Shown piece by piece: positions 1-7,473 of a stretch of DNA of 38,868 bases. The notes under the pieces were generated by a model. The model did not search any database and was not told the origin of the DNA. It worked only from the letters and a program-made list of their open reading frames with translations. The position numbers and the translations under genes were made by a program. The stretch lies in NCBI RefSeq assembly GCF_900114615.1, contig NZ_FOTS01000047.1, forward strand, positions 1 through 38,868, in the 5' to 3' direction. Numbering within the stretch: the stretch's first letter is position 1; the number at the start of each line of letters is the position of its first letter. The DNA is from Pelosinus propionicus DSM 13327 (GTDB taxonomy: Bacteria > Bacillota > Negativicutes > DSM-13327).

Positions 1-450
1 TGACAGCTTTGGCAAGTCTTACAAGACTGGCAGGACTGACAGCTTTGGCAAGTCTTACAAGACTGGCAGGACTGACAGCTTTGGCAAGTCTTACAGGACT
101 GGCAAGACTGGCAACAGTGACAAGAATAGCAGGACTGGCAAGACTGACAAGACTGGCAGCAGTGGCAAGAATAGCAGGACTGGCAAGACTGACAAGACTG
201 GCAGCAGTGGCAAGAATAACAGGACTGGCAGGACTGACAAGATTGGCAGCTGTGGCAAGAATAACAGGACTGACAGCACTTCATCGAATAGCAGGACTCA
301 CAACTCTTCATCGAATAGCAGGACTCACAACTCTTCATCGAATAGCAGGACTGACAGCTCTTCATCGAATAACAAGACTGACAACTGCTCATCGAATAGC
401 AGGACTGGCAACTCTTCATCGAATAGCAAGACTGACAACTGCTCATTGAG
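1..450. repeat. Tandem repeats inside the Cys-rich gene (36-, 45- and 27-bp units)
   Basis: Read on the minus strand, the left part is a 36-bp unit repeated about three times (roughly 1-96), the middle a 45-bp unit (about 97-260) and the right a 27-bp unit (about 260-440). All unit lengths are multiples of nine bases, so copy changes keep the three-residue Cys rhythm in frame. Copies differ mostly at third codon positions (TGC/TGT, TCC/TCT), which suggests selection on the protein rather than a very recent expansion. Confidence 0.85.
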
Positions 451-548
451 CAACTAAGCATAAAATCATCATCGTCATCATAATCACAATCATAATCACA
501 ATCATCATCGTAATCATCATCGTAATCATCATCGTCATCATAAAACAT
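1..548 (-). CDS. Cys/Met-every-third-residue repeat protein, 5' part only (runs off left edge)
   Basis: I do not recognise a family. The ATG at 548-546 follows a good ribosome site (GGAGGTGA), and the frame stays open for 182 codons to the window edge, so the C terminus is missing. Residues 1-29 are almost only Asp and Tyr with two Cys. From residue 35 to 182 every third residue is Cys or Met (43 Cys, 7 Met, no miss). The fillers are mainly Gln-Ser, Tyr-Ser, Lys-Ser and Lys-Thr. Three tandem units follow one another: nine residues (S-M-K-S-C-Q-S-C-Y), fifteen (H-C-C-Q-S-C-Q-S-C-Q-S-C-Y-S-C) and twelve (K-T-C-Q-S-C-Q-S-C-Q-S-C). There are 50 Cys in the visible part. No signal peptide or membrane segment is seen. 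Likely roles are soft-metal binding, a disulfide-crosslinked spore or surface layer, or a substrate for thiol modification; all are inference. The gene itself is well supported, its function is not. Confidence 0.8.
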   Translation of the reverse strand, partial: MFYDDDDDYDDDYDDDCDYDCDYDDDDDFMLSCSMSSCQSCYSMKSCQSCYSMSSCQSCYSMKSCQSCYSMKSCESCYSMKSCESCYSMKCCQSCYSCHSCQSCQSCQSCYSCHCCQSCQSCQSCYSCHCCQSCQSCQSCYSCHCCQSCQSCKTCQSCQSCQSCKTCQSCQSCQSCKTCQSC

Positions 549-651
549 TAATGAATCACCTCCATAAAATTCAGGGTAACCTATTAACATAGTATGATAA
601 CGCTAGATCAGATGTGACATTGTTTAACGGTGGTATTTCGAAAGTGTCACG

Positions 652-818: not shown

Positions 819-1277
819 ATGATGGAACAAAGAAAAGAAATGCTGAAATCTTTTTTTAGATTGTCAAGGAAATTCCTGGAGGCAATGAAACAACCAAATA
901 AATTTGGCACAGACAGACTTCTATACTCATCAGAAATTCATACCCTCGAAATGATTGGCAAACATCCAGGCATAACCGTGACCGAACTGGCAGATCGACA
1001 GGGTATTTCCAAAAGCGCCCTGCCAAAAATCATACATAAACTCATTCAAAAAGATCTGGTCTACCGTTATCAGGAAACTGGCAATAAAAAAAATATTCTT
1101 TTGGAATTGACGGACAAAGGTCGAATTGCCGTTCAACATCATTTCAAATTTCACGAAACCTTTGACAGCGGCATTATGAAAAAAATTAACTCATTAACGC
1201 CGAAAGAATATTTGTTTCTCAGCGACATCCTGCAAGACCTGGAACAGTATATTGACCACATGGAGCAGCAGGAATAG
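819..1277 (+). CDS. MarR family transcriptional regulator
   Basis: A 152-residue protein of typical MarR length. Residues about 38-105 form the winged helix-turn-helix: an Ile/Thr-rich helix pair (GITVTELADRQGISKSALPK) followed by a wing region (YQETGNKKNILLELTDKG). Helices at both ends would form the dimer interface. The ATG at 819 follows TGAGGTAG, and a second ATG follows immediately, so the start is certain to within one residue. The gene stands upstream of an RND efflux operon on the same strand, and matching operator-like palindromes lie in its own promoter and in the gap before the operon. It is therefore probably a ligand-responsive repressor of itself and of the pump. The ligand cannot be told from sequence. 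Confidence 0.9.
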   Translation: MMEQRKEMLKSFFRLSRKFLEAMKQPNKFGTDRLLYSSEIHTLEMIGKHPGITVTELADRQGISKSALPKIIHKLIQKDLVYRYQETGNKKNILLELTDKGRIAVQHHFKFHETFDSGIMKKINSLTPKEYLFLSDILQDLEQYIDHMEQQE

Positions 1278-1313
1278 CCATATTGGATTTATATAATGAG
1301 GTATTTAGCAACA

Positions 1314-1347
1314 AATGCCGGCAAAATAAACCTTCTCCACCGGCATT
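1314..1347 (+). terminator. Possible terminator after the MarR gene
   Basis: AATGCCGG (1314-1321) pairs with CCGGCATT (1340-1347) across an 18-base loop and is followed by a short T-rich stretch (1354-1359). The loop is long, so this is a modest candidate. It would separate the regulator transcript from the efflux operon. Confidence 0.45.
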
Positions 1348-1364
1348 CATATGATTTTTCCTTA

Positions 1365-1383
1365 TCGTTCACCTGGTGTACAT
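1365..1383. promoter_or_regulatory. MarR-type operator-like box, copy 2
   Basis: TCGTTCAC-CTG-GTGTACAT matches the box in the MarR promoter at 15 of 19 positions and keeps the same dyad. It lies in the 1278-1689 gap before the efflux operon. TACATT at 1379-1384 could serve as a -10, though the -35 is weak. Confidence 0.55.
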
Positions 1384-1430
1384 TTTAATCACATACAAAC
1401 TATCCTGACATTTTTATTAAGACATGCGAA

Positions 1431-1449
1431 ACTATTCACCTAGGCAACT
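1431..1449. promoter_or_regulatory. MarR-type operator-like half box, copy 3
   Basis: ACTATTCACCTA keeps the left arm and centre of the box but the right arm is poor (GGCAACTA). TATAAT at 1454-1459 just downstream would be a good -10. Weak on its own; listed because of the two better copies on either side. Confidence 0.3.
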
Positions 1450-1550
1450 ACCCTATAATCAAGTTTATCTGATTGAATTAAGATGCTATTTCAGCAACAA
1501 GGATATCCTTTGCAAACGTATGCGAGTGACATCCTTATCTTTTTAAATTA

Positions 1551-1569
1551 TCGTTCACCTGGTTAACTT
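1551..1569. promoter_or_regulatory. MarR-type operator-like box, copy 4
   Basis: TCGTTCAC-CTG-GTTAACTT has a perfect left arm and centre and a partly conserved right arm. It lies about 260 bases upstream of the adaptor start. Together the three boxes in this 412-base gap point to control of the efflux operon by the upstream MarR protein. Confidence 0.45.
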
Positions 1570-1689
1570 TTCTTCTGAATGTCTGACGCTTCATCCAGGC
1601 TTCTCTGCCAAGAATATTTAGTAACTTTTCGCTATTCTTGACTTTATCAATCTTATTCTACTTACTTTTACTAAAGGAGGAAGCTTCCT

Positions 1690-1782
1690 GTGCCACAGCA
1701 TACCCCCCTTTCGTCAGGCCCCCTTTTTCTAGCTGAATTATTGAACATGCTGCTATTTGGCATCGCCCGGCGCGCACCGTAA
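1690..1782 (+). CDS. Possible 30-residue leader peptide before the efflux operon
   Basis: A GTG at 1690 sits nine bases after a near-perfect ribosome site (AAAGGAGG, 1673-1680) and opens a 30-codon frame ending in TAA at 1780-1782. The peptide has a hydrophobic middle and an Arg-Arg end (L-L-N-M-L-L-F-G-I-A-R-R-A-P). The frame ends 45 bases before the adaptor start. The strong ribosome site, with no other gene in reach, is the main reason to list it. It may be a regulatory upstream frame or a chance ORF. Confidence 0.4.
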   Translation: MPQHTPLSSGPLFLAELLNMLLFGIARRAP

Positions 1783-1827
1783 ATTCTTTTCCGAAAAAAC
1801 AGATTGTATACGATAAGGAGTGTTTCT

Positions 1828-2946
1828 ATGTTCAATATGCGACTGAATCTCAGCCGAAAAAAATACTATTATGCTCTGGTCGCTTTAACGGTAGGCTGCC
1901 TACTGGTAGGGGGCATGGCAAAAACACATTTTGCAAAAGCGCCAATAAAACCGGAAAGCTTCCCCGTGGTCCGCACCCAGCTCATTCAGGCAGCTACTGC
2001 CGGACAGGATTACACCTATGCCGGGGAAGTGCGCGGTCGCCATGAAAGCCAATTGGCTTTCCAGGTCACCGGCAAAATCATCAAACGCAATGTGCAGCTA
2101 GGCAGTATAGTCAATGTCGGTGATGTGCTGATGCAGATGGATGCGAAAGACATTCAGCAGACGGTAAGCAGTAATTCTGCCCAGATATATTCCGCCCAAT
2201 CGCAACTTAAGCTTGCCGAAAGTAATTTGAACCGCTACCGGCAATTACTGGACAGCGGCGCGATCAGCCATGCTCAGTATGACCAGTACGTCAATACCTA
2301 TGATGCCGCGGCGGCAGCGGTGCAGCAGGCGGCGGCCCAGTATACGCAGGGCGCTAATCAACTGGATTACACCTTATTGAAAGCGGATCAGACAGGAGTT
2401 GTCTCCGCAATCACCGCCGAGGCCGGCCAGGTTGTCAGCACCGGTCAGACAGTTGTCACCGTCGTCCAGGACGGAGAACAAGAAATCGAAATTAACGTAC
2501 CTGAAAACCGCCTGGAAGAATTTAAAACCGCCGGACAGCTCCGAGTTACTTTTTGGGCTTTGCCAAATGTGACACTGAACGGTAACGTGCGGGAAATCGC
2601 TCCCATGGCAGATCCGACGACTCGCACCTTCAAAGTGCGCGTCAGCCTGCTCAATCCACCGCCTTCTGTCAAGCTTGGGATGACGGCTACCGTTGCCTTA
2701 TTTGGTGGCGCTGCCCAATCTGCATTTTCCATTCCACTTTCTGCACTCTATCAGACCGGCAATACGCCCGCCGTCTGGGTTGTGAACGACAATATCCTGA
2801 CACTGCGCCCCATCCAAACCGGACTCTTTGGTAATAGCACGATCCAGGTGCTGGCCGGACTGCAGCCAGGCGACTGGATTGTCAGCGCCGGCGTACATAA
2901 ATTAACAGAAGGACAGAGGGTAAAAACAACCGGTGATGCCCTGTGA
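1828..2946 (+). CDS. RND efflux periplasmic adaptor subunit (HlyD/AcrA type)
   Basis: A 372-residue membrane-fusion protein linking an inner-membrane RND pump to an outer-membrane channel. Residues 12-30 are a membrane anchor or signal segment. A first lipoyl half (F-Q-V-T-G-K-I-I-K) is followed by 'G-D-V-L-M-Q-M-D', an Ala/Gln-rich coiled-coil hairpin (about 105-165), the second lipoyl half (A-D-Q-T-G-V-V-S), then beta-barrel and membrane-proximal domains. ATG 1828 was chosen because AAGGAG precedes it by seven bases; a TTG further upstream has no such site. Cys24 lies in the hydrophobic segment but in a poor lipobox. The stop overlaps the pump start (GTGA), so the two are translationally coupled. 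Exported substrates are unknown. Confidence 0.93.
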   Translation: MFNMRLNLSRKKYYYALVALTVGCLLVGGMAKTHFAKAPIKPESFPVVRTQLIQAATAGQDYTYAGEVRGRHESQLAFQVTGKIIKRNVQLGSIVNVGDVLMQMDAKDIQQTVSSNSAQIYSAQSQLKLAESNLNRYRQLLDSGAISHAQYDQYVNTYDAAAAAVQQAAAQYTQGANQLDYTLLKADQTGVVSAITAEAGQVVSTGQTVVTVVQDGEQEIEINVPENRLEEFKTAGQLRVTFWALPNVTLNGNVREIAPMADPTTRTFKVRVSLLNPPPSVKLGMTATVALFGGAAQSAFSIPLSALYQTGNTPAVWVVNDNILTLRPIQTGLFGNSTIQVLAGLQPGDWIVSAGVHKLTEGQRVKTTGDAL

Positions 2947-5900
2947 GCCATTTTAACCTTACCGCCTGGTCATTAAACCACAAACAATTCATTTATTTCT
3001 TTATCTTCCTCTTTTTTGTGGCTGGCCTTTTCTCCTACAAGAACGTGGGACGAATGGAAGATCCGGATTTCGCCATTAAACAAATGATTGTCAGCGTTGC
3101 CTGGTCAGGAGCCACCGCCAGCCAGATGGAAGAGCAGGTTACGGATAAAATTGAAAAGAAACTGCAGGACCTGCCTGGGCTTGACTATCTGAAAAGTTAC
3201 TCTACACCGGGACGTACGGTGATTTACATCAATCTCAAAGATCAGGTTCCCGCCAAGGAGCTTCGGGCCAGATGGCTGGAAGCCCGCAATATGGTGAAAG
3301 ATATCAAAGGAACCTTCCCGGAAGGCGTTTCTGAGCCCAGCTTCAATGACCGGTACGATGAAGTATATGGCGTAATCTATACGCTGACCGGTGATGGATT
3401 TACCTACGAGGAAATGCGGGAAAGAGCCGAAAAAATCCGCCGCATTCTCTTAAGCGTTCCCAGCGTAAGTAAAGTCCAGCTCTTGGGGGTGCAAAGCGAA
3501 AAAATCTACATTGAAATCGAAAATAGCAAACTGGCCCGTTTAGGTCTTGATCCGTCTGTAATTACAGCCGCCTTAAAGGAGCAAAATGCCATGGCCGCCG
3601 CCGGCATGCTGGAAACGGTATCCGACAATGCTTACTTACGAATTACCGGGATGTTTGAAAATTTGGAAGACATCCGCACCACGCCCATTCAGGCTGGTGG
3701 CCGCACCTTCCGTCTGGGAGACATAGCCAAGGTGACTCGCGCCTATGCTGAACCATCCGACCCGAAAATGTATTATAACGGTCAGCCGGCTGTCGGCATT
3801 TCTCTGGCAATGGAACCCGGCGGCAACATTCTGACACTGGGTAAAAATCTTGATAGTACTCTCTCTCAAATAAACCAAGAACTGCCGGCCGGGCTGGAAA
3901 TCAATCAAACTGTCAATCAGCCGAAAGTTGTGGAATCCTCCATCGGCGAATTTGTTGAATCCCTGGTCGAAGCGATCGTCATCGTTTTAATTGTAAGCTT
4001 TGCCAGTCTGGGTATGCGGTCCGGCGTGGTCGTGGCCCTAACCATCCCTTTAGTCATTGCCATTACGTTTACCTTAATGTACCTGACAGGCATCGCCCTG
4101 CAGAGCATCTCGCTGGGGGCTCTCATCATTGCGCTAGGTTTGTTGGTCGATGATGCCATCATCGCCACTGAAATGATGATCGTCAAGCTGGAGCAAGGCT
4201 GGAGCCGCTTCGACGCCGCTTGTTTTTCCTATACCTCTACCGCCTATCCCCGTTTGACCGGCGCGTTAATAACCTGCGCGGGCTTTATTCCCATCGGTTT
4301 CTCCAAAGGACTTGCCGCCGAGTTTTGCGTCGATCTCTTTTGGGTTATATTCTTCGCACTCATTGCTTCCTGGCTGGTTGCCGGAGCAGTCGCCCCTTTG
4401 CTCGGTTACCAGTTTATTAAAATAAAACCGGCCCAGCAAACAACCGATGAAAGCAATGTCCACCATGACCTTTATGACACCCCCTTTTATCGGCGATTTA
4501 AACGCTTGTTACTGTGGTGCATGCATCACCGCAAAACCGTACTAACAGCTACTGCCGCCGCATTTATCGGCTCTATTTTTCTCTTGGGATTGGTCAAACA
4601 GGAATTCTTTCCTGCGTCCAGCCGTCCGGAGCTCATCATCCAGCTCAAATTACAGGAAGGAGCTTCCCTAACCAACACTGCGGATGTGGCCCGCCAGTTT
4701 GCTAAAGAATTGGACGACGACCCGAACATTTCCTATTACACCTATCATGTAGGTGAAGGAGCTCCTCGCTTTGTGCTCAGTTTTGAACCAACCTTCAATA
4801 AATCGAATTTCGCTGAATTCATTGTAGTAGCCAAGGATGTTCAGGCTCGTAATGCACTTGCCCTAAAAGCCGAACAATTATTAAACACTGAATTTACAGG
4901 TGTTCGAGGGCATATAAAGTTATTATTCACCGGAACGGGACCCGATTATCCGGTGATGCTGCGGGTAAAAGGCCCTGACCATGAAAAAGTTCGTGAAATC
5001 GCTGAACAAGTTCGCGCCGTCATGGCCGCCCATCCAGCTACACAAAACGTAAACCTCAACTGGAATGAGAAAAGCAAAGTGATGCACTTGGAGGTTGACC
5101 AGGCAAAAGCCAAAGCCCTCGGACTCAGTTCCCATGAATTGGCCGCATCGCTCCAAACTCAGTTGTCCGGAACACCTATCACCGAGTTTCGTCAGCATGA
5201 TAAAACCGTCAGCATGGTTCTCCGGTTTGCGGAAGCGGACCGTAATAACCCGGAACGGATAAAAGACCTCAACATCCATATCGGCAACGGCAAATATGTC
5301 CCGCTTGACCAAATCGCCACCATCCGTTATGACGCCGAAGAAGGCTTAATTTACCGGCGCGACCTGCTGCCCATGATTATGGTACAGGCGGAACTGAATC
5401 CCACGTCTAAACATACCGGCTCGGACGTGACCAAGCAAGTTTACGGCAGCCTCCAGGAACTCAGAAGCAGTCTGCCAGCCGGCTATTTCATTGAATTTGA
5501 CGGTGCAACGGAACGCAGCATTAAAAGCAGCAAGTTCCTGGCGGAACCCATCCCAGCCATGCTGCTTATCATTATGATTCTGCTCATGACGCAGCTGCAA
5601 AGTATACCGAAAATGCTGTTAACCCTCTTAACAGCGCCACTTGGTATTATCGGTGTATCCATCAGTCTCCTGCTCACCGGAAGTCCTATGGGATTTGTGG
5701 TCCAATTGGGAATTCTGGCCTTGTTCGGTATTATTATGCGCAATACCGTTATATTGATGGACCAGATTGAACAACATCTGGTGGCCGGCGACTCGCTATG
5801 GGACGCTATTGTGTCAGCGACAATCAGCCGCTTCCGCCCTATTATGCTAACAGCGGCAGCCGCTATCCTAGGCATGATTCCGCTGGTACCCAGTACTTTA

Positions 5901-6059
5901 TGGGGCTCCATGGCGATTGCCATCGCCGGCGGTTTACTGGGAGCAACCATCCTGACTTTGCTGGTGCTGCCGGTTATGTATGCTACCTGGTATAAGGCAC
6001 AACCAGATGACGGTACAAAAATCAATTCTTTAAATGACGCCGGAAAGTCAATGTCTTAG
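2943..6059 (+). CDS. RND efflux transporter permease (AcrB-like superfamily)
   Basis: A 1038-residue inner-membrane proton antiporter of full RND length with the usual duplicated 6-helix plan: TM1 at about residues 14-31, a large periplasmic porter domain, TM2-6 around 335-490, a second porter domain (about 560-855) and TM8-12 to the end. The proton-relay Asp pair is present in TM4 (G-L-L-V-D-D-A-I, near residue 403). In the second bundle, 'G-I-I-M-R-N-T-V-I-L' puts Arg where AcrB has its essential Lys. The start is a GTG overlapping the adaptor stop. The pair belongs to one operon with the TolC-like gene 118 bases downstream. The substrate is likely a toxic organic compound (family knowledge); a metal pump is less likely because the helices lack the Met-rich motifs of CusA. 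Confidence 0.93.
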   Translation: MSHFNLTAWSLNHKQFIYFFIFLFFVAGLFSYKNVGRMEDPDFAIKQMIVSVAWSGATASQMEEQVTDKIEKKLQDLPGLDYLKSYSTPGRTVIYINLKDQVPAKELRARWLEARNMVKDIKGTFPEGVSEPSFNDRYDEVYGVIYTLTGDGFTYEEMRERAEKIRRILLSVPSVSKVQLLGVQSEKIYIEIENSKLARLGLDPSVITAALKEQNAMAAAGMLETVSDNAYLRITGMFENLEDIRTTPIQAGGRTFRLGDIAKVTRAYAEPSDPKMYYNGQPAVGISLAMEPGGNILTLGKNLDSTLSQINQELPAGLEINQTVNQPKVVESSIGEFVESLVEAIVIVLIVSFASLGMRSGVVVALTIPLVIAITFTLMYLTGIALQSISLGALIIALGLLVDDAIIATEMMIVKLEQGWSRFDAACFSYTSTAYPRLTGALITCAGFIPIGFSKGLAAEFCVDLFWVIFFALIASWLVAGAVAPLLGYQFIKIKPAQQTTDESNVHHDLYDTPFYRRFKRLLLWCMHHRKTVLTATAAAFIGSIFLLGLVKQEFFPASSRPELIIQLKLQEGASLTNTADVARQFAKELDDDPNISYYTYHVGEGAPRFVLSFEPTFNKSNFAEFIVVAKDVQARNALALKAEQLLNTEFTGVRGHIKLLFTGTGPDYPVMLRVKGPDHEKVREIAEQVRAVMAAHPATQNVNLNWNEKSKVMHLEVDQAKAKALGLSSHELAASLQTQLSGTPITEFRQHDKTVSMVLRFAEADRNNPERIKDLNIHIGNGKYVPLDQIATIRYDAEEGLIYRRDLLPMIMVQAELNPTSKHTGSDVTKQVYGSLQELRSSLPAGYFIEFDGATERSIKSSKFLAEPIPAMLLIIMILLMTQLQSIPKMLLTLLTAPLGIIGVSISLLLTGSPMGFVVQLGILALFGIIMRNTVILMDQIEQHLVAGDSLWDAIVSATISRFRPIMLTAAAAILGMIPLVPSTLWGSMAIAIAGGLLGATILTLLVLPVMYATWYKAQPDDGTKINSLNDAGKSMS

Positions 6060-6177
6060 TAGTATGAAATTGCGCAATTACTGAAGCCACTGCTGCCATC
6101 ATCATTGTCAGCCAGCGATTAGAAATGATTTCCAGAAACAATATAAATGTAAAATAATCCAACCGAAAGGAGAAATC

Positions 6178-7473
6178 GTGAAATCACCATTCATTCTCGT
6201 TAATACAGTCGTTGTAGCGGCTACTGCTTTCGTTATGTTTTGCCAAACTGCCCTGGCAGCACCGCTGGAGCTCTCACTTGATGCGAGTATTGCTCTGACG
6301 TATAAGAATAATCCAGCACTGCAAATTGCAGAAGCACGCCAAGAACAGTCAGTTTGGGCGCTGAAAGAAGCTCAGACCAATAAAAACATATCCCTAGATT
6401 ATGCCCATACGGATATACGTTCAAATTCCCCGCCCACATGGTCACGCTCCCCTGAAGCCGTCTCTCCCTATAACTATTTCAGCAACCAGATTATCGCCAG
6501 TATTCCACTCTATACCGGTGGTAAAGTAGAAAACACGATTGAACAAGCGAAACTCAGTCACAAGGTGTCTCAGCTTGAAAGTGCAGCCACCAAACAACAA
6601 CTCAAATTAGAAGCGAGTGAGGCCTATTATAATGTGCTGCAGAAAAAGACCTTGCTAGAAATCGCCAAACAAACGGTAAATGATTTTAACGCCCATCTTA
6701 AACGTGTCCAGCAAATGTACGATACCGGCGTGGCATCCTGGCATGACGTACTGCAAACCAAGGTCCGGCTAGCAAATGCGGAAAATGATTTAGTAAAAAC
6801 GCAAAACGATTATGATCTAGCCGTCTACAGCCTAAATAAAACGATGGGCTTACCCCTGCGCAGCGAAATTACGCTGACAGAACCGCTAATTTATCAGGAA
6901 TATGCTTTGGATCTTGACGACGTTATCTCCTATGGATTGGCACATCGTCCGGTGGTCGCTCAACAGCAGGCGAATATTCAAATAGAAGAAGCACAAATCA
7001 AAATCGCCCAAAGTGGACAACATCCCAAGGTTATGCTGACCGGGACCATGGCCTGGGATAACTACGACTTTGCTGGTACGGCGAACAGAGATTGGACCGC
7101 GATGTTGGTAACCCAATTTAACCTATTTGACTCTGGCAATACCAAAGCCAAAATCAGGCAGGCACAATCAGGCGAGTTAGCCGCACGGAAGCAAGCGCAA
7201 CAAATACAGAATAACATTTCCTTGGAAATCAGCGATGCTTATTTGAGTATGAAGGAAGCAGAAAAACGAATAAGTACCAACAAGGTAGCTGTTGAAGAAG
7301 CCAGTGTGAATTTTGCTATTGCACAAAGAGCTTATAGCGCCGGTGTCGGCACCAATTTAGATGTTATGGATGCTGAACTGGCACTACACCAGGCAAAAAC
7401 CAACTATACTAACTCATTATTTGACTATAACATCAGCAAGGCCCGGCTTCACAAGGCGATCGGCAGCGAATAA
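6178..7473 (+). CDS. TolC family outer-membrane efflux protein
   Basis: A 431-residue outer-membrane factor that completes the tripartite pump. Residues 1-27 form a Sec signal peptide ending in A-L-A-A. The rest is the duplicated OEP fold: long Ala/Gln/Lys-rich helices broken by beta strands (the Y-T-G-G-K strand near residue 115 and L-F-D-S-G-N near 318). The GTG start is preceded by AAAGGAGA. Its presence is direct evidence of an outer membrane, unusual for a Firmicute and typical of Negativicutes. No terminator is obvious in the 195-base gap after it, which holds only a dispersed repeat. Confidence 0.92.
   Translation: MKSPFILVNTVVVAATAFVMFCQTALAAPLELSLDASIALTYKNNPALQIAEARQEQSVWALKEAQTNKNISLDYAHTDIRSNSPPTWSRSPEAVSPYNYFSNQIIASIPLYTGGKVENTIEQAKLSHKVSQLESAATKQQLKLEASEAYYNVLQKKTLLEIAKQTVNDFNAHLKRVQQMYDTGVASWHDVLQTKVRLANAENDLVKTQNDYDLAVYSLNKTMGLPLRSEITLTEPLIYQEYALDLDDVISYGLAHRPVVAQQQANIQIEEAQIKIAQSGQHPKVMLTGTMAWDNYDFAGTANRDWTAMLVTQFNLFDSGNTKAKIRQAQSGELAARKQAQQIQNNISLEISDAYLSMKEAEKRISTNKVAVEEASVNFAIAQRAYSAGVGTNLDVMDAELALHQAKTNYTNSLFDYNISKARLHKAIGSE

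Follow-up and report, generated by a model that had tools for sequence, protein, structure and literature searches.

Background

Repetition of a cysteine-led tripeptide is not in itself new among bacterial peptides. Precursors made of Cys-Xaa-Xaa repeats, with cyclodehydratase-type maturation, were described in 2009 as heterocycloanthracins (PMC2674419). Such precursors are short (BA_2677 has 88 residues, 13 of them Cys), carry a leader and come with a set of dehydrogenase, scaffold and cyclodehydratase genes (PMC2674419). A second point of comparison is provided by CdeC and CsxA, proteins of the exosporium or coat of Clostridia which, in the excerpts of the literature used here, are linked to sporulation and very rich in cysteine. 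The third is enzymatic. According to the sections of PMC13063428 used here, Escherichia coli YcaO is a backbone thioamidase whose target is a protein Met, Met82 of uL16, and not a RiPP, and given sulfide, Mg and ATP it modifies full-length uL16 in vitro; the relevant part of PMC7550191 places the thioamide between Met82 and Gly83. The substrates of non-TOMM YcaOs were unknown at the time of a 2015 survey, in the portion cited (PMC4603692), and the 2026 E. coli paper suggests, in the sections used, that further YcaO protein substrates remain undiscovered (PMC13063428).

Here we analyze a gene of Pelosinus propionicus DSM 13327, probably a spore former, whose product carries Cys or Met at every third residue and whose conserved partner is a YcaO gene. 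Cys-Xaa-Xaa repeats with dedicated maturation are known, and so are YcaO enzymes; what appears to be new, judging from the sequences, is a YcaO with a candidate dedicated substrate made of a sulfur-rhythm repeat. Our preferred reading, to which we assign a probability of about one half, is a late mother-cell structural protein of the spore whose repeated backbone is modified by the adjoining YcaO. In the open-licence literature we found no description of a family with Cys/Met at i+3, nor of any YcaO linked to spores, although Figure S33 of PMC13063428, on RiPP-like contexts of non-acidic relatives, might mention such loci. An earlier note on this DNA knew of no described family with the pattern: the 2009 precursors contradict this (PMC2674419), even if the window protein is not one of them by most of the features tested.

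A strict sulfur rhythm at a contig edge

The window, that is, the whole stretch of 38,868 nucleotides that was analyzed, is the entire contig G000:C116 (NZ_FOTS01000047.1). The features discussed below are these:

1-548, minus strand: first 182 codons of the sulfur-rhythm gene, which starts with the ATG at 548-546 and runs off the contig
462-548, minus strand: Asp/Tyr-rich N terminus, residues 1-29, from the translation
3-446, minus strand: residues 35-182, the rhythm region, with Cys or Met at each of its 50 third positions
557-563, minus strand: putative ribosome-binding site GGAGGTG, from the sequence; a Shine-Dalgarno-like motif is present in 23 of 25 upstream regions of the family
589-615, minus strand: sigma-K-type promoter, AC (615-614), 17-base spacer, CATACTAT (596-589)
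Contig G000:C23 (locus L006), about 3957-4049, minus strand, outside the window: 3' part of the rhythm gene, delimited by hand from the sequence
Contig G000:C23 (locus L006), 2042-3859, plus strand, outside the window: ycaO gene

Direct translation of positions 1-548 gives a stop-free minus-strand frame (548 to 3) of 182 residues, in which all 50 third positions from Met35 to Cys182 are Cys (43) or Met (7), with zero misses. The earlier note had described this rhythm over residues 35-182, the 29-residue Asp/Tyr N terminus before it, and a start with a ribosome site; all are found in the translation and at the positions listed, and a further in-frame ATG lies at 590. The residue following a rhythm position is mostly Gln, Tyr or Lys (41/49) and the next is Ser in 42/49, so that the array counts 9 distinct tripeptides among 49. 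AlphaFold2 models the protein (P0001) at a pLDDT of 33.8 with zero secondary structure, and searches yield no Pfam family match and none in NCBIfam at E up to 1.

The frame is indeed open at the window edge, as had been noted, because the window is a whole contig and the assembly breaks inside the repeat. Contig C23 (4,049 bases) terminates in the same repeat, in frame and with an 8-base overlap with the window start, and continues the gene as SCQSCQSCKTCHSCHSCKTCHSCHSMKREK-stop: nine further rhythm positions, then SMKREK-stop. From the overlap, the in-frame repeat and the stop we read C23 and C116 as neighbors, and C23 very probably carries the end of the gene. The leftward extension that the earlier note had proposed as a check thus very probably supplies the C terminus, together with a YcaO gene beside it, and the stop or frameshift just past the edge that could have undone the claim is not seen, if the contigs are neighbors. 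The join relies on the 8-base overlap and on the order of ycaO and rhythm gene in relatives. As the MarR and efflux proteins of the window and the dehydrogenase of C23 have no tblastn match at 1e-8 in the loci of eight relatives, these relatives back the adjacency of the two genes only and not the rest of the join. If the contigs join, the product has 210 residues (182 + 30 - 2) and 58 rhythm positions (50 + 9 - 1), both minimum values since the break falls within the repeat. On its other side the window holds, at 819-7473, a MarR-type regulator and, after it, ORFs that seem by eye to encode a membrane-fusion, RND efflux and outer-membrane set.

A repeat of this kind raises the question of a spurious frame over a tandem DNA repeat. 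Internal DNA repetition is strong here, two plus-strand frames are also open, and similar-looking repeat frames exist without a YcaO partner; part of the repetition of the window array is in fact owed to tandem duplication. As a full account, tandem duplication was rejected, since other species keep the same spacing with other residues: locus L036, for instance, has 38 Met positions spread over 22 distinct tripeptides among 37. As a gauge of chance, the best 12-position score of the 359 other open frames of the window is 4/12, and in 60 loci whose YcaOs fall outside the clade defined below, the 5,994 frames reach at most 7/12. As a promoter-like sequence, a ribosome site and a start also stand before the frame and recur in the relatives with other fillers, we regard a spurious origin as extremely unlikely.

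A YcaO gene is the conserved partner

The YcaO protein encoded on C23 has 605 residues, its gene is convergent with the rhythm gene, and it is the sole YcaO found in this genome. Among 60 close genomes, the rhythm protein is matched in nine, the YcaO in eight and both in six. In these six, the two genes lie side by side four times (G005, G034, G050, G058), at facing contig ends in our genome and on different contigs in G017; as for the two genomes with a YcaO match alone, a rhythm-like gene adjoins it in G028 and none does in G037.

To reach further relatives, a profile of eight YcaOs was searched against the species collection and the best 80 of 409 candidate loci were kept. A rhythm frame adjoins the YcaO in all of loci L029-L045 (at least 46% identity, the frame-broken L055 apart), with scores of 12/12 in 14 loci, 11 in L045, 10 in L041, which is cut by a contig end, and 9 in L037. 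In a tree of 82 YcaO sequences (broken L055 and partial L058 left out, three duplicates dropped), the 22 rhythm-bearing rows sit in a clade of 24, with an SH-aLRT support of 97 obtained by a quick method with no bootstrap, and the rhythm label requires 2 changes, against 19.8 when shuffled. The genes are adjacent in 20 of these 22 rows (across facing contig ends in our genome); the rhythm gene is on another contig in L023 (G017) and 3 kb away in L054. In the remaining two clade members no protein of strict rhythm lies nearby: nothing of the kind is seen in L046, and the Met-rich protein of L047 does not keep the rhythm strictly. The latter, a small Met/Pro/Tyr-rich frame at L047:7845-8195 that reaches 7/12, may be a divergent partner. 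L055, whose YcaO is 46% identical, frame-broken and outside the tree, has no rhythm protein. Outside the clade, none of 60 fetched loci (5,994 frames, with L055 and some incomplete loci included) reaches 9/12. A second tree of 49 rows, including E. coli YcaO, also groups the 18 adjacent-type YcaOs in one clade (support 96); the position of E. coli YcaO in it is unsure because of a very long branch.

Gene orientation is convergent in most loci and co-directional in L043 and L044. No third gene is widely common: when neighboring frames of at least 70 aa within about 6 kb were clustered by blastp (E 1e-6) in 20 loci, some of them ended by contig edges, no cluster apart from the pair occurred in more than 5 of the 20, the next best occurring in 5 and 4.

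Across the class of the window, 17 of 380 genomes have this YcaO at 1e-90 and 16 of the 17 also have the rhythm protein, G314 being the exception. The two genes are adjacent in fifteen (our genome, again, across facing contig ends) and on separate contigs in G017. Our genome aside, seven of the 16 pairs lie outside the loci named above (G005, G017, G034, G310, G318, G321, G323); G005, G017 and G034 were already in the profile and the first tree, and the pairs newly added are G310, G318, G321 and G323. In a sample of 398 genomes from the phylum, only our own has this YcaO at 1e-90, so the module is rare. Overall, the two-gene pairing is conserved and well supported. It names a candidate substrate for one stand-alone YcaO clade, found in cultured anaerobes such as Sporomusa and Clostridium.

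Spacing is kept while residues change

We compared 25 arrays, leaving out L035 and L113 as masked. Their common unit is Cys or Met, then Gln, Lys, Asp, His, Asn or another residue, then mostly Ser, followed in frequency by Cys, Gly, Pro and Ala. Arrays are mostly Cys (as in SCQSCH) in our genome, Sporomusa sp. KB1, Propionispora, G017 and G034, and mixed Cys/Met (as in SMKCMDSC) in other Negativicutes, S. acidovorans included. In five Clostridium species the longest run is Met-only: 28 positions in C. ganghwense, 38 in C. aestuarii, 36 in OS1-26, 49 in C. uliginosum and 56 in C. gasigenes. Ser at +2 is frequent in some Met-type relatives (16/27 in L034, 26/37 in L036) and is nearly nil in L038 and L044. 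An N terminus resembling the Asp/Tyr segment occurs in many Negativicutes relatives, although not in G005, S. acidovorans or G310, and is absent from the Clostridium proteins.

Homologues with the same rhythm and different fillers, which the earlier note had set as a test of its claim, are thus present across the family. From these comparisons, selection seems to keep sulfur at i+3 while tolerating changes of the sulfur residue and of the fillers. A family where sulfur spacing is the conserved trait and Cys and Met are exchangeable is under an unusual constraint, and the exchange argues against a family-wide role of thiols, disulfides or Cys-derived azolines alone. Two earlier proposals are affected. 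A disulfide-crosslinked coat fails for the family as a whole, the Clostridium members carrying Met, not Cys, at rhythm positions. The idea of a substrate for a thiol-modifying enzyme survives in part: a modifying enzyme is plausible, as a YcaO is the conserved partner, and its purely thiol basis does not hold family-wide, for the same reason of Met at the Clostridium positions.

The three-residue period also recalls collagen, and a collagen-like filament of the spore surface with sulfur in the X position can be envisaged: the C. uliginosum array (L043) scores 81.9 bits against Pfam Collagen (PF01391; cut-off 27.2), because Gly occupies nearly every third residue. Such Gly-rich arrays are seen at L043:5276-5803 (42/48) and, in C. 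gasigenes, at L044:5219-5881 (54/55). Gly dominates in these two of the 25 arrays only. Elsewhere its place is taken mostly by Ser, Ala, Pro or Cys, with which no collagen triple helix forms, and neither P0001 nor three other family arrays scanned (L029, L036, L039) match the model. On the Gly pattern and these scans we rejected collagen as a family-wide account and consider the filament very unlikely.

A sporulation-type promoter

The motif AC-N16/17-CATANNNT precedes 20 of 25 rhythm genes, that of the window included, at 57-79 bases from the start; the 25 upstream regions are those of the array set, with L113 replacing L041. Dinucleotide shuffling gives a mean of 0.69 and a maximum of 4 in 200 shuffles. 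As the species are related, 20/25 expresses conservation and not 20 independent cases, and the shuffles overstate independence. Of 184 other ORFs examined in the window and L029-L045, the motif precedes 11; these include three ycaO genes, one masked rhythm gene (L035) and one shadow frame. The form resembles that of known promoters: in the portions cited, AC marks the -35 element of C. difficile sigma-K promoters, with CATATAAT at -10 for sigK itself (PMC3789822), and the B. subtilis boxes lie 14-16 bases apart, counted from longer boxes (PMC517825). A sigma-K-type promoter of the rhythm genes is therefore well supported at the sequence level, and the link to spores suggested by the earlier note gains substance.

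The sequence before ycaO is supported more weakly: the rhythm-gene motif occurs in 7 of 24 cases (shuffled mean 0.62), and the variant AC-N16/17-[CA]ATATANTA, chosen after viewing the sequences, in 10 of 24 (shuffled mean 0.09). In our genome a sigK-like gene is present as two pieces about 5.3 kb apart (G000:C78:180450-180866 and 186134-186385; L144, L145), which cover model positions 4-143 and 137-220. Their scores, 234.8 and 101.9 bits, both fall short of the cut-off of 298.65, as if sigK were interrupted by a skin-like element. Elsewhere in the genome, L007:4686-6994 (G000:C85) has two adjoining ORFs with SipL/SPOCS domains, the first kind bearing an SH3 tail and the other His/Asp-rich. A sigma-K-type motif precedes a small Cys/Asp-rich ORF in the region, and these are probably spore-layer genes.

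With such a promoter, the rhythm protein could be a plain Cys/Met-rich coat or exosporium protein, its sulfur left unmodified as disulfides, soft-metal ligands or oxidant sink, next to a YcaO that acts elsewhere, for instance on uL16, and owes its position to shared late-sporulation expression. Cys-rich proteins that self-assemble at the spore surface are known, CdeC and CsxA among them in the excerpts used, uL16 is the target reported for E. coli YcaO in the sections cited, and the clade includes several YcaOs of fairly acidic pI (down to 4.73). Set against this, 22 of the 24 clade members keep the pair, in Negativicutes, in Clostridium and in further Clostridia, no third gene is widely common, and the pI of 4.40 of E. 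coli YcaO suits the basic uL16 better than does the clade mean of 6.18, a weak argument. Disulfides cannot be the common function, because Met-type arrays have few or no Cys. P0001 also differs from CdeC and CsxA in having no NCBIfam match (the library includes a CdeC model), a strict three-residue rhythm and a YcaO partner. On balance an unmodified coat protein seems rather unlikely; placement of the rhythm protein in a spore layer, which our preferred reading shares, is quite probable.

The enzyme is closest to E. coli YcaO

The C23 protein is a clear YcaO (183.1 bits against PF02624, cut-off 25.7). Residues E74, E77, E193, E201, E204 and E293 are invariant in 25 YcaO sequences, in a region that aligns with 4q84; we take them to be nucleotide-site residues with a role in ATP binding. 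The structural model has a pLDDT of 91.0, and its first 16 Foldseek matches are all E. coli YcaO, the best with TM 0.80/0.84 over about 600 columns; other YcaOs (azoline-forming LynD, TruD and McbD, and archaeal ones) reach 0.29-0.67 by target length. A sequence profile (A1) agrees, scoring 268.9 bits over 541 positions with 4q84 and 53.8 with the next chain.

The likeness to E. coli YcaO (PDB 4q84-4q86) extends over the full-length fold, including the C-terminal helical domain, with 31% identity over about 400 residues, and to the lack of TfuA (PF07812, 0 matches in our genome). In the cited sections of PMC13063428, TfuA is not universal for thioamide-forming YcaOs and is missing in E. coli as well. 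Three features set the enzymes apart. Our enzyme scores 304.1 bits with the E. coli equivalog NF040716, far below the cut-off of 700; its pI is 5.78 (clade mean 6.18, range 4.73-8.86, trimmed open frames), against 4.40; and in place of uL16 it is paired genetically with a low-complexity sulfur-rhythm protein. YcaOs outside the clade have a mean pI of 5.60, so a non-acidic pI is no mark of the clade. Neither is a C-terminal CxxCxx(x)C..C element, found in 21 of 24 clade members and in 20 of 58 others. A C-terminal PxPxP is typical of TOMM cyclodehydratases; it is found in the last 15 residues of none of 87 YcaO frames (broken L055 and partial L058 included), and the TOMM cyclodehydratase model TIGR03604 gives our YcaO 56.1 bits (cut-off 219.25).

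Taken together, the fold, the lack of PxPxP, TfuA and maturation neighbors, and the charge favor a dedicated protein substrate other than uL16, and we think it likely that the rhythm protein is that substrate. Of the known YcaO reactions, the same evidence favors thioamidation, the best fit to a Met-x-x repeat. By analogy with the E. coli enzyme, ATP-dependent backbone thioamidation at many repeats would be the reaction, a proposal that we place slightly short of an even chance. The analogy has bounds. E. coli YcaO needs folded uL16, leaves peptides of 11 or 21 residues unmodified and still modifies the M82A variant, in the sections cited (PMC13063428); therefore it gives no ground to expect a disordered substrate or to require Met. 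According to the same sections, its group includes a few non-acidic members that look RiPP-linked (PMC13063428).

Could the pair instead be an azol(in)e RiPP system similar to heterocycloanthracin and sonorensin (TIGR03601), the YcaO cyclizing repeat Cys, and Ser, to thiazol(in)es and oxazol(in)es of a bacteriocin or signal? Tandem Cys-Xaa-Xaa units, tripeptide-wise variation in length and dedicated maturation enzymes, the marks of heterocycloanthracins (PMC2674419), are shared, and a small residue precedes most rhythm positions. Related YcaOs of a sister branch lie beside Nif11-leader precursors at L052:4290-4628 and L053:5496-5813 (TIGR03798, 45.3 and 50.2 bits, cut-off 32.3), which makes azoline or other RiPP chemistry possible; these peptides have the Nif11 leader with, by eye, a GG motif, both absent from rhythm proteins, and themselves lack the rhythm. 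Against the RiPP reading, Met at a rhythm position cannot be cyclized, and +2 Ser, frequent in some Met-type relatives, is nearly nil in others. The weak TIGR03604 score is paralleled by the absence of any Pfam or NCBIfam match of P0001, the heterocycloanthracin family included (presence of TIGR03601 in the library being assumed). A typical leader is lacking, no scaffold, cyclodehydratase and dehydrogenase cluster is found among shared neighbors within 6 kb, and a single YcaO is present in our genome. In place of a short precursor we find at least 210 residues, Met replacing Cys in relatives, one YcaO neighbor and a late-sporulation promoter. The resemblance to heterocycloanthracin is real, and most of the family features tested are missing. 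Membership of the heterocycloanthracin/TOMM group was rejected on model scores, context and Met-type relatives, and the RiPP reading as a whole is distinctly improbable. Azoline formation at Cys or Ser could still take place in some members; as a reaction common to the whole family it fails at rhythm positions, because Met-type relatives offer nothing to cyclize there.

A putative sulfur-lattice spore layer

In our preferred reading, the gene would produce, late in sporulation and in the mother cell, a structural protein of tripeptides with Cys or Met, then a polar and a small residue, and the adjoining YcaO would modify its repeated backbone. We would expect a rod or mesh in which sulfur recurs in register at every third residue, in side chains and probably also as thiocarbonyl; such a product would lend itself to soft-metal binding, oxidant quenching or coat cross-linking. 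The conserved spacing points to a role of ordered sulfur in spore layers through metal, oxidant or cross-link chemistry. In its most specific form, which we advance tentatively, a lone YcaO would thioamidate a structural protein at dozens of spaced residues, yielding a polythioamide and an endospore layer with a sulfur lattice. If true, this would be categorically new: to our knowledge no earlier structural protein is known to be poly-thioamidated, and a YcaO active on neither ribosome nor bacteriocin would gain a defined substrate.

Rhythm frames without the YcaO

A search of the class with the window protein matches 30 of 380 genomes, of which 13 have the pair and 17 lack this YcaO at 1e-90; it misses three pair genomes (G028, G309, G310). 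Ten fetched loci of the 17 hold a frame of at least 9/12 (L014, L016, L123, L127, L128, L131, L132, L133, L135, L140); a long Cys/Met rhythm by itself is therefore not confined to genomes with this YcaO. By eye, six of the ten look like frames over DNA repeats, and four like other real peptides (L127, L131, L132, L016).

Three of these four (L127, L131, L132, in G062, G064 and G063) form one separate Cys-x-x family, with about 70-80 leader-like residues followed by NCCQANCCQTCQGCQSCQTC-type repeats. Their genomes have no YcaO at 1e-90, L131 has no convincing Pfam or NCBIfam match, and the family is a possible RiPP precursor. The fourth, at L016:1498-1722 (G006:C1, same genus), is a short Cys/Asp/Ser protein; it contains stretches of DSCDSSDSCDSC and KKCHKCHKC and reaches 9/12, in a genome without this YcaO. 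Finally, a 44-residue frame at L020:1507-1638 (G017:C56) resembles the N terminus of the rhythm gene and meets an early stop, while the full gene lies on C64; from its sequence it would be a relic or second copy.
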